64,000 nucleotides of DNA from Hymenobacter jeollabukensis (GTDB taxonomy: Bacteria > Bacteroidota > Bacteroidia > Cytophagales > Hymenobacteraceae): positions 434,001 through 498,000 of the forward strand of contig NZ_VAJM01000004.1 in the NCBI RefSeq assembly GCF_005771675.1. The letters are read 5' to 3'. The position numbers were made by a program, and so were the translations under genes. Of the stretch, positions 4,322 through 64,000 are shown piece by piece; within the stretch, counting starts at the first letter, position 1; each line of letters starts with the position of its first letter. Under the pieces are notes generated by a model, which saw only the letters and a list, made by a program, of their open reading frames with translations, was not told the DNA's origin and searched no databases.

Positions 4322-5056
4322 CTAGCGCAGCAGCGGAATTTCGCGCTCCTGCACCACCACCGTGTCGCCGGTGCCGAGCAGGCTTGGCAGGGTTTCGCTC
4401 AGCATATTCCACTCGCCCGTGTAGGCCGTCTGGCAGCCGCCCGACTGCACCAGGTAGCTGAACAGCGGAATCGACAGATCCTTCGCCCGGGCCTTGAGCA
4501 CGCGCACGCGGCGCACCTGGCAGTACTGCGAATAGCCCGTCACCGGCGGCATGGCCTGGCAGGTTTTGTCGTGGCGGGCCTGGAGCACCGCCTCGGCCAG
4601 CTGGTTGACGCGCGTCATGCAGCCCGTGGTGATAGGCATCATCACGCGGGCCGTGTCCAGCTGCCTGAGCAGGAGGGCACCGGGCGTCCGGTCGGTTATT
4701 TCGGTGCGGATGCTGTCGACGGAGGTGGGCGTGGTGGTGGTGAGCGTGGCGCGGTTGGCGCTGCGGAACGTCAGCGTGAGCGTGGTGTTGCCGACGGGCA
4801 CGTCGGTGTGCGAGAAGTAGCCGGCCGCCCAGGGCCGGCGGGCCAGGAATCGGTCCACCTGAGCCTTGTTGTTGATGACCCCGTTCTGGGTATATATCAG
4901 GATGGGGCTGGAGGCATAGATGGTGGGCCCGGTGTGGTAGCGGCCCGTCGCGTCGTACCGGATTACCAGGTCATCGAAGCTCTCGTTGGGAACGTCGTGG
5001 CAGTTGGTCAGCAGCAGGGCCGTGGCCGCCAGGGTGAGGGAGGTGAGTAAGCGCAT
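4322..5056 (-). CDS. Hypothetical lipoprotein
   Basis: A 244-residue protein beginning with a short hydrophobic signal and the lipobox LLTNC (Cys19), so it should be a lipid-anchored envelope protein. Four further cysteines lie in the C-terminal half (for example QYCQVRRVR and GGCQTAYTGEW) and could form disulfides in the periplasm. No domain that I recognise is present. It is transcribed alone, with a hairpin behind it and the SDR gene's terminator in front. Confidence 0.75.
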   Translation of the reverse strand: MRLLTSLTLAATALLLTNCHDVPNESFDDLVIRYDATGRYHTGPTIYASSPILIYTQNGVINNKAQVDRFLARRPWAAGYFSHTDVPVGNTTLTLTFRSANRATLTTTTPTSVDSIRTEITDRTPGALLLRQLDTARVMMPITTGCMTRVNQLAEAVLQARHDKTCQAMPPVTGYSQYCQVRRVRVLKARAKDLSIPLFSYLVQSGGCQTAYTGEWNMLSETLPSLLGTGDTVVVQEREIPLLR

Positions 5057-5175
5057 TTCGCGGATAGTAATGAGTACGGCAGCAATGGAGGCTGTAAAGA
5101 TAGCACCGCCCGCGCCCGGGCAACGCCTGGTAAGTCGGTTGGATCGGTAGGCGCTTTTGAGGGTGGAGCCGCTAA

Positions 5176-5208
5176 AAAAGCCCGCCCGTATCGTACGGGC
5201 GGGCTTTT
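5176..5208 (-). terminator. Intrinsic terminator of the SDR gene
   Basis: A perfect 15-bp stem (AAAAGCCCGCCCGTA) with a 3-base loop, 21 bp downstream of the SDR stop. It is flanked by A and T runs, so it can work in both directions. Confidence 0.9.
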
Positions 5209-5228
5209 CTGTATGAGTTGCGTGCCGC

Positions 5229-6038
5229 CTACTTGGCGCTTTCGTCGCCGTCGACGGGCTTGCTCTCGGTGTGCACCTTGGCCGCCACCAGCTCGTCGGG
5301 AATCACGTTGCTGGCCGTCACCTGCACCTTGTTCATCAGGCCCGAAATGACGCGGTTCTGGCCGGCCATCAGGGCCTTGTAGCCGTCCTTGGCCACGTCG
5401 GCGGGCTGCATCATGCCTTTCTTCTCGGCCACGTTTTCGGCGCGGGTCATGTCGGCCTTGTTGAAGAAGTCGGTGTCGGTCAGGCCGGGCAGCAGGTTGG
5501 TGATGGTGACCTTGCTGTCCTTGTTTTCCTCCTGGATAGAAGTCGCGAAGGAGTTGACGAAGGCCTTGGTGGCGTGGTAGACGGCCTGCAGCGGGCCGGG
5601 CAGCTGCCCGGCAATGCTGCCCACCAGCAAAATCTTGCCCTCCTGGCGAGCCAGCATTTCCTGCAGGTAGAGCTTGGTCAGGGCCACGTAGGCGCCGCAG
5701 TTGAGCTGAATGATGTCCAGCTCGCGCTGAATGTCGGTGGTGTCGAAGGTGCCGTACTGGCCCTGCCCGGCGTCGTTCACCAGGATGTCGACCCGCAGGC
5801 CCTGGCCCTTGACTTCGTCGTAGAGCTCGAACGGGGCCTCGCGCCGGAACAGGTCCTTGGCAATGGTGGTGACCTGCACGCCGTACTGCTGCTTGATTTC
5901 CTGGGCCGTCTGGGCCAGCTCCTGCTCGTTGCGGGCGACCAGGATGAGGTTGTGCTTGTCCTGCGCGAAGCAGTTGGCCAGCTCGCGGCCGATGCCGCTG
6001 GTGCCGCCCGTAATCAGGGCCGTTTGGGTGGTTGCCAT
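5229..6038 (-). CDS. Short-chain dehydrogenase/reductase (SDR)
   Basis: A 269-residue classical SDR. The nucleotide-binding motif TGGTSGIG is at about residues 11-18, the structural motif NDAG at about 89-92, the catalytic serine in VGSIAG near 139, and the YxxxK pair in YHATK at about 154-158. It should be an NAD(P)H-dependent oxidoreductase of the cytoplasm. The DltE-like layout (LLVGS then LPGPLQAVYHATK) is common in general-purpose SDRs, so the substrate cannot be inferred. The C-terminal tail past residue 245 is acidic and probably disordered. It has its own terminator and appears monocistronic. Confidence 0.93.
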   Translation of the reverse strand: MATTQTALITGGTSGIGRELANCFAQDKHNLILVARNEQELAQTAQEIKQQYGVQVTTIAKDLFRREAPFELYDEVKGQGLRVDILVNDAGQGQYGTFDTTDIQRELDIIQLNCGAYVALTKLYLQEMLARQEGKILLVGSIAGQLPGPLQAVYHATKAFVNSFATSIQEENKDSKVTITNLLPGLTDTDFFNKADMTRAENVAEKKGMMQPADVAKDGYKALMAGQNRVISGLMNKVQVTASNVIPDELVAAKVHTESKPVDGDESAK

Positions 6039-8678: not shown

Positions 8679-8942
8679 TCAGGCCAGCACGATGCGCTTC
8701 GGGGCCATTTCCACCGCGTAATCCTGGATTACCTGCCGCAGAATCTGCATGTCGCGGGGGCAGCAGCGGGCAAACTCCTCCCAGTTGGTCAGGGTAAGCT
8801 GCTCCGGCATTTCCACGATGGCCACAACGGAGTCCCAGAAAGCGTCCCAGCTCGGGCCGTACCAGTCTTCAAAGCCCAGCTGCTCCTTGAACAGTTGGTG
8901 AATGGCGGCTTTGCTGGTGATGCCGGTCAGGTCGAGAGTCAT
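8679..8942 (-). CDS. Barstar-family (barnase inhibitor-like) protein, orphan
   Basis: An 87-residue acidic protein with the barstar layout. An N-terminal helix (SKAAIHQLFKEQLGF) is followed by YGPSWDAFWDSVV, the loop and helix that barstar uses to plug the barnase active site, then a strand LTLTNWEEF and a C-terminal helix and strand. Barstar folds inhibit guanyl-specific ribonucleases. Here I see no ribonuclease, YeeF/CdiA-type toxin or secretion gene nearby, so the partner is unknown or lost. The upstream gap holds the 42-bp palindrome array. Confidence 0.85.
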   Translation of the reverse strand: MTLDLTGITSKAAIHQLFKEQLGFEDWYGPSWDAFWDSVVAIVEMPEQLTLTNWEEFARCCPRDMQILRQVIQDYAVEMAPKRIVLA

Positions 8943-9043
8943 GGCAGATGAAGGAACATTGGGTCAGCTAGTACGGTTGCAGCCGCTTCGGAGTCGGGTG
9001 CCGCCCCCGTTTCGGCGGCGTACCGGATGCAACGCCCCCTGCG

Positions 9044-9308
9044 CCGCCTGGGCGGCAAGGCCGGCAGCCTTGCCAATAGCCGCTCCCGCCTGGGCGGCAG
9101 GCGCTGAGGCAGTACAAAAAACCAGTCCCGCCTAGGCGGAATGCCCTTTCAAGCGCTAAAAACATCTTGCCGCCTAGGCGGCGACAATTCTTTATCCGCT
9201 GAAAGCTGCCCCCGCCTAGGCGGGGGGGCATTTCGGCCCTTTGGGAAGACCCCTCCGCCTAGGCGGGGGCACTACCATAAACGGAATCAGCCGCCCCCGC
9301 CTAGGCGG
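9044..9308. repeat. Seven-unit array of the palindrome CCGCCTAGGCGG with a 42-bp period
   Basis: The 12-bp palindrome CCGCCTAGGCGG (the first two copies are CCGCCTGGGCGG) starts at 9044, 9086, 9128, 9170, 9212, 9255 and 9297. The spacing is 42, 42, 42, 42, 43 and 42. The six 30-31 bp spacers differ, although on the minus strand several begin with a weak GGGCGGCTTT-like consensus, so the whole is a degraded tandem repeat with a strictly kept palindromic core. A weaker possible eighth unit lies near 9001-9020. 42 bp equals 14 codons, so short open frames with RLGG repeats appear on both strands; I do not treat them as genes. It fills the gap between the 9345-10046 gene and the barstar gene. Confidence 0.95.
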
Positions 9309-9344
9309 AAACGGCTGATAGTACTGTGGAACGGGCGTGGCGGC

Positions 9345-10046
9345 TTACCCGGCCATCGGAGCGGCTGCTTGTTTGGCAGCTTTGCGAACGGAAGCGCCCT
9401 TGTTCACCCGCCCGAAATCAAAGAACCGGTACACCTCGGCCGGCTCCTCGAAGCGCAGCTCCAGCTGGGCCTTGAGGCGGCGCAGCGCCCGGGCCAGGGC
9501 CAGCCAGTCGCCCGACAAGGCCACGCGGGCCTTGCCGATGGTGGCCTCGTTGGTGTCGCGCTCCGCGTGGGCCTGGGCTAGCTGCTGATACACGGCGTCG
9601 GCCTCGGCGGGCAGCTCGGGATACTTCATGGTGGCGGCATACGCCTGGTATAGCTCCAGCAGCTGCTTGGATTGCTGCAGCAGCTCCACCTGCGGCAGCT
9701 GGCTGAGCTTGGTCTTCTGGTATTTCTTGAAATCAGCGTACACCGGCAGCTTGCGCAGCTTCGGCGTCACGTAGTCCTTCATGGTATCGTCCACGAACGT
9801 GAGCCACTGCCGGCGCGCCGTCCGGAAGGCCTCCGTGTCGCCCGTAGTCGATTCGTCGGCGTCGAGCAGGCTCCCGTCGAAGCCGTTGAGGGCCGCCTGC
9901 AGCGCGTCTTCGTGCGGGTCAAAGGCGGCACCCAACTTGGCCTCGCGCAGGGTGCGCAGGGTGGAGGCGCCCAGCTCCTTGAAGTTGGCCCGCGAAATGG
10001 GCAGCGAGGCAAAAAAATTGTCGAAATAACTCTGGTAAGCAGGCAT
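9345..10046 (-). CDS. Hypothetical alpha-helical protein
   Basis: A 233-residue soluble, charged, helix-rich protein with no signal peptide. Features include ALQAALNGFDGSL near residue 48 and PVYADFKKYQKTKLSQL near 101, then a long helical C-terminal half. The broken gene at the right end of the window (63420 onward) shows the same pattern: a YDN/FDN start, ALQAALDRF, and FYPDKLSGLTQ at matching distances. The two appear to be distant members of one family. I do not recognise the family and propose no function. Its 3' end abuts the 42-bp palindrome array. Confidence 0.75.
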   Translation of the reverse strand: MPAYQSYFDNFFASLPISRANFKELGASTLRTLREAKLGAAFDPHEDALQAALNGFDGSLLDADESTTGDTEAFRTARRQWLTFVDDTMKDYVTPKLRKLPVYADFKKYQKTKLSQLPQVELLQQSKQLLELYQAYAATMKYPELPAEADAVYQQLAQAHAERDTNEATIGKARVALSGDWLALARALRRLKAQLELRFEEPAEVYRFFDFGRVNKGASVRKAAKQAAAPMAG

Positions 10047-63168: not shown

Positions 63169-63419
63169 GCCACAAACTTACAACGTCGGGGGCCTTCGGG
63201 CCCGCCCCGGCCGCCGTGGCCTACCCGCCGCGCGACACCCGGGCGTCGCGCGGCCCAAAAAACGCGCGCAGCGGCGGATCAGGCTTGCATCGGCGCGCTT
63301 TTCTGCTAATATTTCTGCCCCTTACCCCGCTCTATCCGCTTGGCCCGAGCCCCTTTACACACCGCGCTTACCCCGCCCCGGCCGCCTGTCTTTTTCCCAC
63401 CATTCTTACCCCTACTGCC

Positions 63420-64000
63420 GTGTACGACGAACGGTACGACAACCATTTCCGGCGCATTTAGGCCTCGCGCGACGCTTTCGCGGACTTCGCCGATTTCACT
63501 CTGGAGGCCCTGGTGCTCAGCGCCACGCCCAAGCTGCTGCGCGACGAGCGCGCCGCCCTGCAAGCCGCCCTCGACCGGTTTCGCGGCGGGCTGAGCGGGC
63601 GCGCCTCCGGCAGCGGCCAGCGCCAGAGCGGCACCCAAACCGAGGACCAGGCCTTTGCCGCCCTCAAAGCCCAGGTGCAGGCCACCGACCAGAAGCTGCT
63701 CGGGCCGCGCTTCTACGACCACCCGGCCGAGAAGGCCCGGTTCTACCCCGACAAGCTGAGCGGCCTCACCCAGGCCCCCAAGGCCAAGCGCCTCACCCGC
63801 TTCACCGCCTACGTGAAGCAGCTGGAGGGTCACGACGAGGCCGCCATCCAGGCCGCCGGGCAGCAGACCCGCGCCCTGCTCGCGGCCTACACCGCCGCCA
63901 CTGCCGCCAAAAACCAGGGCGCCAAGGCCGTGAAGGACACCATCAGCGCCCTCGGCCCCGACGCGCTGGCCCTGGCCGACGCGCTGTGGAGCGTGCATTG
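63420..64000 (+). pseudogene. Gene broken by in-frame TAG, related to 9345-10046; continues past the window
   Basis: A GTG at 63420 opens YDERYDNHFRRI, then TAG at 63459-63461. The same frame then runs open to the window end (ASRDAFADFADFTLEAL, ALQAALDRFRGGL, FYPDKLSGLTQ). The sequence aligns along the whole length, across the stop, with the intact 9345-10046 protein (FDN start, ALQAALNGF, PVYADFKKYQKTKLSQL). I infer a nonsense mutation in an old gene. Expression from an internal start such as the GTG at 63510 cannot be excluded. Confidence 0.6.

Follow-up and report, generated by a model that had tools for sequence, protein, structure and literature searches.

Seven short palindromes stand at regular intervals between two minus-strand genes of the window, the 64-kb stretch of DNA analysed here (C22:434001-498000 of genome G000, 6.18 Mb in 27 contigs). 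The questions raised by this locus are to which gene, if either, the array belongs and what could be reading it. One neighbour encodes a barstar, upstream of which the original prediction had placed the array. The other encodes a protein for which the name PAAP (palindrome-array-associated protein) was coined in this analysis. The window array is one copy of a recurring pair of PAAP gene and array, and its conserved partner is the PAAP gene, not barstar.

Anatomy of the window array

The palindromes (Table 1) follow one another in steps of 42, 42, 42, 42, 43 and 42 bp. Seven perfect palindromes had been predicted, and all seven sites are found at the predicted starts and steps; however, only five are perfect (CCGCCTAGGCGG), and the first two by coordinate (CCGCCTGGGCGG) have a mismatched central pair. 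No other match to the core with up to one mismatch is found in the window, and a count of seven was reached in none of 100 dinucleotide-preserving shuffles (mean 0.69, maximum 3). The spacers have diverged around intact palindromes, as the prediction held: compared pairwise, the units have an identity of 0.96 over the core and of 0.32 over the spacers. A tandem-repeat program run on the window gave no row at the array, which lies 36 bp past the stop codon of the PAAP gene and 101 bp ahead of the barstar start.

Of 84 outer-arm positions, 40 pair with the partner in the same unit, whereas the full set of 5040 permutations averages 29.7 (P=0.0036). This pairing was unforeseen and keeps alive a reading of the array as RNA. 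The array folds with z values of -8.15 and -7.98 on the two strands, and a terminator scan of positions 8900-9400 gave five matches, compared with 0.5 in shuffled sequence. Units 4 and 5 both carry minus-strand matches, and unit 4 also carries one on the plus strand. The minus strand is the sense strand of the PAAP gene, and the positions of the matches at units 4 and 5 thus suggest that much of the array may be transcribed.

Table 1. Features of the window discussed in the text; units are numbered from the PAAP stop codon.
Feature	Position	Strand	Basis
Palindrome array: seven 12-bp sites at 42/43-bp spacing	9044-9308		Core matches, spacing
Unit 1, CCGCCTAGGCGG; complementary outer arms ATCAGCCG/CGGCTGAT	9297-9308		
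Unit 2, CCGCCTAGGCGG; 43-bp step to unit 3	9255-9266		
Unit 3, CCGCCTAGGCGG; single-unit fold of -28.1 kcal/mol, the most stable among the seven	9212-9223		
Unit 4, CCGCCTAGGCGG; terminator-like match on both strands	9170-9181		
Unit 5, CCGCCTAGGCGG; minus strand has a terminator-like match	9128-9139		
Unit 6, CCGCCTGGGCGG; central mismatch	9086-9097		
Unit 7, CCGCCTGGGCGG; central mismatch	9044-9055		
PAAP gene, 233 aa, predicted all-helical, without family match; 3' end adjoins the array	9345-10046	-	
Barstar gene (PF01337), neighbour on the downstream side; conserved partner is PAAP	8679-8942	-	
Second PAAP-family gene, cut by the window end; one in-frame TAG reported	63417-64000	+	

The PAAP family and its flanking arrays

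A profile built from 18 members recovers PAAP from 43 of the 204 taxonomic-family genomes, in two of six genera. Across the order it is found in 21 of 390 genomes, including four that do not belong to the family; the hosts of the arrays are presumably Hymenobacter-like. An AlphaFold2 model made with 72 sequences is all-helical (pLDDT 88.6, pTM 0.61). Structure searches found no solved or viral counterpart at E<=0.001, none of the members scanned against Pfam and NCBIfam scored above cut-off, and neither a DNA-binding domain nor a fold match could be recognised in the protein. The profile scores obtained against the PDB (best E 0.0039, to a globin stretch) and against PADLOC and PHROGs (best 0.0066 and 0.011, one member each) were weak and were taken as chance. 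In the C-terminal 25 residues, basic residues outnumber acidic ones in 65 of 71 PAAPs. One query found no PAAP in plasmid records, and a search with one query protein found none in viral contigs.

The association between gene and array was tested systematically at 73 PAAP places, comprising 29 loci from the profile search, 40 hand-picked from its list and four others. Two places have less than 200 nt of 3' flank, leaving 71 for the 3' side; periods of 15-90 were allowed, and the threshold was the best score among 71 block-shuffled flanks. A palindrome array above this threshold is found in the 3' flank of 48 of the 71 genes, with periods of 42 (34 arrays), 43 (8), 41 (1), 21 (4) and 32 (1), so that 43 of the 48 fall at 41-43 bp. 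On the 5' side, seven of the 73 places pass. Five of these belong to a distant subfamily, defined as the six loci with a profile score below 75 (L282-L287), with periods of 41, 41, 42, 42 and 21; the other two have periods of 18 and 34. The main subfamily thus has a 3' array at 48 of 65 loci and a 5' array at two of 67, and the distant subfamily has a 3' array at none of six and a 5' array at five of six. An array that lies 3' in one subfamily and 5' in the other is not simply the terminator of the gene. Among the 17 of 65 main-subfamily loci below threshold, eight have a best period of 21, 42 or 43. Three of the four loci of homologs outside the taxonomic family have no clear array, and L294 has a weak 42-bp signal in its 5' flank.

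As a control, 450 predicted genes of G000, G168 and G156 were scanned, giving eight array matches. Six of these are PAAP arrays, three reached from the PAAP gene and three from the adjoining gene, and two lie outside PAAP loci. A survey of neighbours at 77 PAAP loci, with flanks of about 0.7-1.5 kb in most, identified no neighbour common to more than six of them. Barstar is one of those reaching six of 77, and it is not supported as the partner of the array, the conserved partner being on the other side.

The window's own genome has five PAAP genes by profile search. The window gene and two members of the distant subfamily pass the array test, the score of a paralog at C22:431984 equals the threshold (21.4, period 42), and the remaining gene ends at a contig edge. 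The second PAAP gene of the window, near the contig end, has 90 nt of 3' flank, too short for the test. Contig C237 of G168 carries four PAAP genes by profile, each followed by a 41-43 bp repeat, of which one (383k) fails the strict test. On the same contig, positions 73983-74192 contain five units of 42 bp in which the linker, GAAAATACAGAGG, is conserved and the hairpins vary; a T run follows the last unit.

Spacing and cores in related genomes

The exact core pair at the window spacing is found in one of the 204 family genomes, that of the window itself. Two matches elsewhere in genome_contigs are in unrelated places and were rejected: a Crocinitomicaceae pair lies within one large inverted repeat, and an Olsenella match lies in a 42-bp tandem repeat containing CCGCCTAGGCGG (contig L022, 4732-4860), the units of which are alike over their full length. 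With steps limited to 41-43, a relaxed triple pattern was present in 56 of the 204 genomes, mostly as single matches resembling coding DNA, with some true arrays having other cores. Because the spacing was fixed in that pattern, the search was repeated with open spacing. Pairs with gaps of 15-45 were matched in 24 of the 204 genomes, and adjacent pairs forming an array were found only in G000 (10 pairs, steps 42/43), G093 (3, step 43) and G156 (2, step 43). G103, G135 and G147 each have two separate pairs on different contigs, and the remaining genomes have one pair each, with spacings from 27 to 54; spacing 43 occurs once among the single pairs (G108) and once among the separate pairs (G135).

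An any-core scan with periods of 15-99 was applied to samples of G168, G000:C22, G156, G158, G009 and G017 and to the window. In 399 kb of G168 it found arrays at 42 and 43 bp, plus two 84-bp rows within the 42-bp array; 400 kb of G000:C22 gave one array at 62-63, 400 kb of G156 one at 43 and one at 60-62, and 200 kb of G009 one at 91-92. The window gave the palindrome array and one at 18-20, and no array was found in 400 kb of G158 or 200 kb of G017.

Orthologs of the window gene carry an array in the same place with other cores: GCTTC-nn-GAAGC in G006, GCCGTCTAGACGGC in G003, GGGAC-nn-GTCCC in G016, and CCCGCC-nn-GGCGGG on 43 bp in G093 and G156. An array of GAGTACTC in G001 and at the paralog in G000 was seen by eye and lies below the threshold adopted later, and the G002 ortholog has a single hairpin only. 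The relatives lack the window core and have the same spacing with other cores, from which it follows that the periodicity is not accidental, the alternative that the original prediction had named.

For the anatomy of the arrays we compared 47 of them, comprising 249 units, with the period restricted to 40-44; this set includes L276, for which the best period had earlier been 32. Their 202 steps are 41 (9), 42 (155) and 43 bp (38), several arrays stepping by 43 throughout. The mean of 42.14 bp, taken over four turns, gives 10.54 bp per turn. The first palindrome centre lies at a median of 28 nt past the stop codon. Dyad pairing falls from 0.91-0.98 at positions 1-4 to 0.85 at position 5, 0.73 at position 6 and 0.34 at position 8. 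The central pair scores 0.45, below the swapped-halves value, since a dinucleotide and its complement alternate at the centres, and C-nn-G centres are found in 34 of the 47 arrays. Identity between units of an array is 0.91 in the core and 0.48 in the spacer. Farther out, own-partner pairs at positions 12-19 number 965, whereas permuting halves within each array gives 904.6 (sd 15.6; P about 0.001), and the units therefore also have hairpin potential. The most stable hairpin is the first or second unit after the stop codon in 36 of 47 arrays. Terminator-like units number 24 in total, of which 16 are unit 1 or 2, and at least one is present in 19 of the 47 arrays. In arrays A-D the unit plan, AAGCCC...GGGCTT, is terminator-like. 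Given that the strongest and the terminator-like units are mostly the first two, later units may often fall outside the transcript.

Cores are uniform within an array and diverse between arrays, the 47 arrays having 24 different half-site sequences. Half-sites are identical in 54% of the 13 pairs with protein identity above 80%; the share is 16% for the 76 pairs at 60-80% and 1% for the 759 pairs below 30%. The resulting correlation between core and protein relatedness has a Mantel r of 0.29, compared with 0.12 for the largest of 2000 permutations; co-inheritance would account for it as well as recognition would. The possibility of one core per genome was rejected, since PAAP arrays of the same genome have differing cores, with a half-site common to one of 22 pairs of same-genome paralogs. 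Paralogs of one genome could thus provide it with several distinct addresses.

Orphan arrays, with no PAAP gene in the DNA examined, are found at L010, L086, L091 and L094. The nine exact copies of CCGCCTAGGCGG in G000 all lie within the window array (A) and a second array with the same core (B, G000:C2:219392-219770, or L010 4392-4770). Array B is flanked by convergent genes for diphthamide-synthase-like and metallo-beta-lactamase-fold proteins, and no PAAP gene was found in the 10 kb examined there. Its 42-bp register runs on into degenerate units and a strong hairpin, and a terminator scan of it gave no match. Two orphan arrays bear the core of a PAAP-linked array in their own genome (B with A, and I with H), a pattern that may reflect either action in trans or copying. 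In L091 (G168:C254), a 42-bp palindrome array at 5030-5240 lies in frame in a gene encoding a B12-binding/radical-SAM protein, with SPSPAMAGEHFTPL-like repeats, and its core matches a PAAP-linked array of the same genome.

A third palindrome array in G000, at C22:213380-213526, has another core, GTGTTCC-n7-GGAACAC on 42 bp, which matches no PAAP array seen in that genome; its spacers include a sequence together with its reverse complement. Intergenic arrays on a 21-bp ruler also occur, at G000:C22 51576, 127375, 154333, 281489 and 305643 and at G168:C237 206245 and 230561. They have a conserved core of 4-8 bp, degenerate remainders and about 7-15 units in register without indels, and they may be coding; closure of all six frames is too strict a criterion for non-coding 21-bp repeats in GC-rich DNA. 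In the samples of both genomes, intergenic autocorrelation is highest at lag 21.

Candidate readers of the arrays

From this anatomy we tentatively favor, at somewhat short of even confidence, a helically phased putative binding array for a dimeric protein, most simply PAAP, cooperating along the array. The module would consist of the PAAP gene and about 5-7 adjoining two-fold symmetric sites, four helical turns apart, each with half-sites of about 5 bp around a 2-bp centre. A dimer would bind each palindrome, and dimers on one face of the DNA could cooperate from site to site, building up a local nucleoprotein patch where the gene ends. Candidate roles for such a patch include self-regulation, gene-end insulation and local chromosome organisation. 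The original prediction had likewise proposed a cooperative multi-dimer array on one DNA face. The ruler on which that proposal stood recurs in many genomes, and cores change between arrays and stay symmetric and uniform within them; the binding itself is putative. Symmetry up to the centre, the uniform core, helical phase and the presence of arrays on either side of the gene argue for binding at the DNA level, as do the linkage to one gene family, the correlation of core with protein relatedness, the first or second unit being mostly the most stable, the cores that orphan arrays share with PAAP-linked ones and the basic C-terminus of PAAP. Against it, own-partner pairing of the outer arms is needless for DNA binding, and C-nn-G centres are what a stem-loop might favor. 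The lack of a recognised DNA-binding domain in PAAP, the main-subfamily loci below threshold, the homologs outside the taxonomic family, the terminator-like matches at units 4 and 5 of the window and the unmatched core at C22:213380 also count against it.

A more elaborate form of this proposal, in which we place less confidence, is a self-addressing system. Each PAAP paralog would read a private, helically phased barcode beside its own gene and form a nucleoprotein filament there and, in trans, at the rare orphan arrays. Barcode and protein would diversify together, the barcode of a whole array being swapped in concert between species.

The arrays could alternatively act as RNA, with the unit of about 42 nt forming a stem-loop, in which case they would be stacked bidirectional terminators, a 3' barrier, or a repeat RNA bound by PAAP as in type III toxin-antitoxin systems. 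The covarying outer arms, the folding of the window array, the C-nn-G centres, the AAGCCC...GGGCTT plan, the terminator-like units of 19 arrays and the matches at units 4 and 5 of the window are consistent with this proposal, which we nevertheless consider rather unlikely. Pairing reaches position 1 next to the centre, which is needless in a loop, and it is the core sequence itself that is uniform, beyond mere pairing. A seemingly positive same-strand G-U preference (71 compared with 33) equals the swapped-halves value and was rejected as an effect of composition. Arrays are found on either side of the gene, and the strongest unit is mostly the one closest to the stop codon. The type III systems ToxIN, CptIN and TenpIN resemble the present loci in having a protein gene adjoining a tandem array of short units, similar in unit length and copy number (ToxI, 36 nt x 5.5), and closely related proteins tend to share repeats (PMC5086642). 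However, the predicted PAAP fold is all-helical rather than that of a beta-core endoRNase, the PAAP array is mostly 3' and not upstream with a terminator between, and conservation within its units is confined to the core. We accordingly place recognition of DNA ahead of a function in RNA, without certainty.

It is also possible, if improbable, that the arrays are satellites, seeded by tandem duplication of the gene's terminator hairpin, spread by recombination and without function beyond termination. Some arrays look young, with similar spacers (L094 and L239), unit 1 is often a terminator, and the 21-bp-phased repeats of the same genomes occur without PAAP. Drift should, however, wear core and spacer equally, which is at odds with their identities across the arrays; one gene family is preferred over the 450 control genes; and a period of 41-43 recurs with unrelated cores. 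Some units do resemble intrinsic (Rho-independent) terminators in having GC stems between A and T runs, but about five units stand in a row with a uniform apical sequence, and most have no T run.

The arrays might instead be read by some host factor distinct from PAAP, such as one acting in the nucleoid or in termination, with PAAP as a passenger. The orphan arrays would fit such a factor, whereas a single factor does not explain 24 half-sites and cores specific to paralogs, and we regard this as a poor prospect. A remnant of a 14-residue coding repeat, for which the in-frame array of L091 and the divisibility of 42 by 3 offer a precedent, can be dismissed as very improbable, as several arrays step by 43 throughout, and for the window array it is refuted by at least one stop in every one of the six frames across 9040-9312, beside its own 43-bp step.

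In iteron- and centromere-type operator arrays, such as parS and plasmid iterons, a gene for a small protein lies near several phased sites, which the protein likely reads cooperatively. The PAAP arrays share phased sites adjoining the gene of a small protein, as well as two-fold symmetry in helical phase, as in cooperative operators, but differ in having multiple chromosomal paralogs with differing site sequences. CRISPR repeats, which are conserved over at least 20 bp, likewise alternate with diverged spacers of regular length. The conserved part of the present repeats is 10-12 bp (a 12-bp core in the window), with the low spacer identity and lack of a tandem-repeat row noted above, and the prediction that the repeats are too short for a CRISPR array was borne out. 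REP/BIME elements are also clustered extragenic palindromes with regular spacing and sometimes alternating orientation, often near gene ends, and their palindromes carry a GT(A/G)G head (PMC2817692). The window core lacks this head, is private to its locus and PAAP-linked, and has nine exact copies in two arrays, compared with usually more than 100 copies per genome for REP/BIME. The only Y1_Tnp (RAYT-like) gene of G000 (L158, G000:C3:154920, 1334-2097) is flanked by GTAG-bearing palindromes that contain GTAGTACC, not by the window core, and an identity with REP/BIME and RAYT was rejected on head, copy number and flanking.

Literature searches returned no description of PAAP arrays in the excerpts that they yielded. 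The module could not be placed in any known family and looks like an undescribed kind of pairing between a protein and a DNA address, in which an unannotated protein family is tied to a repeat array of fixed spacing and locus-private sequence. If PAAP reads its own array, the family would supply a large natural set of orthogonal protein-palindrome pairs, in which the concerted change of sites could be studied. If the array acts as RNA instead, it would represent a new class of protein and repeat-RNA pair. On either reading, a gene family with no assigned function gains a testable partner.
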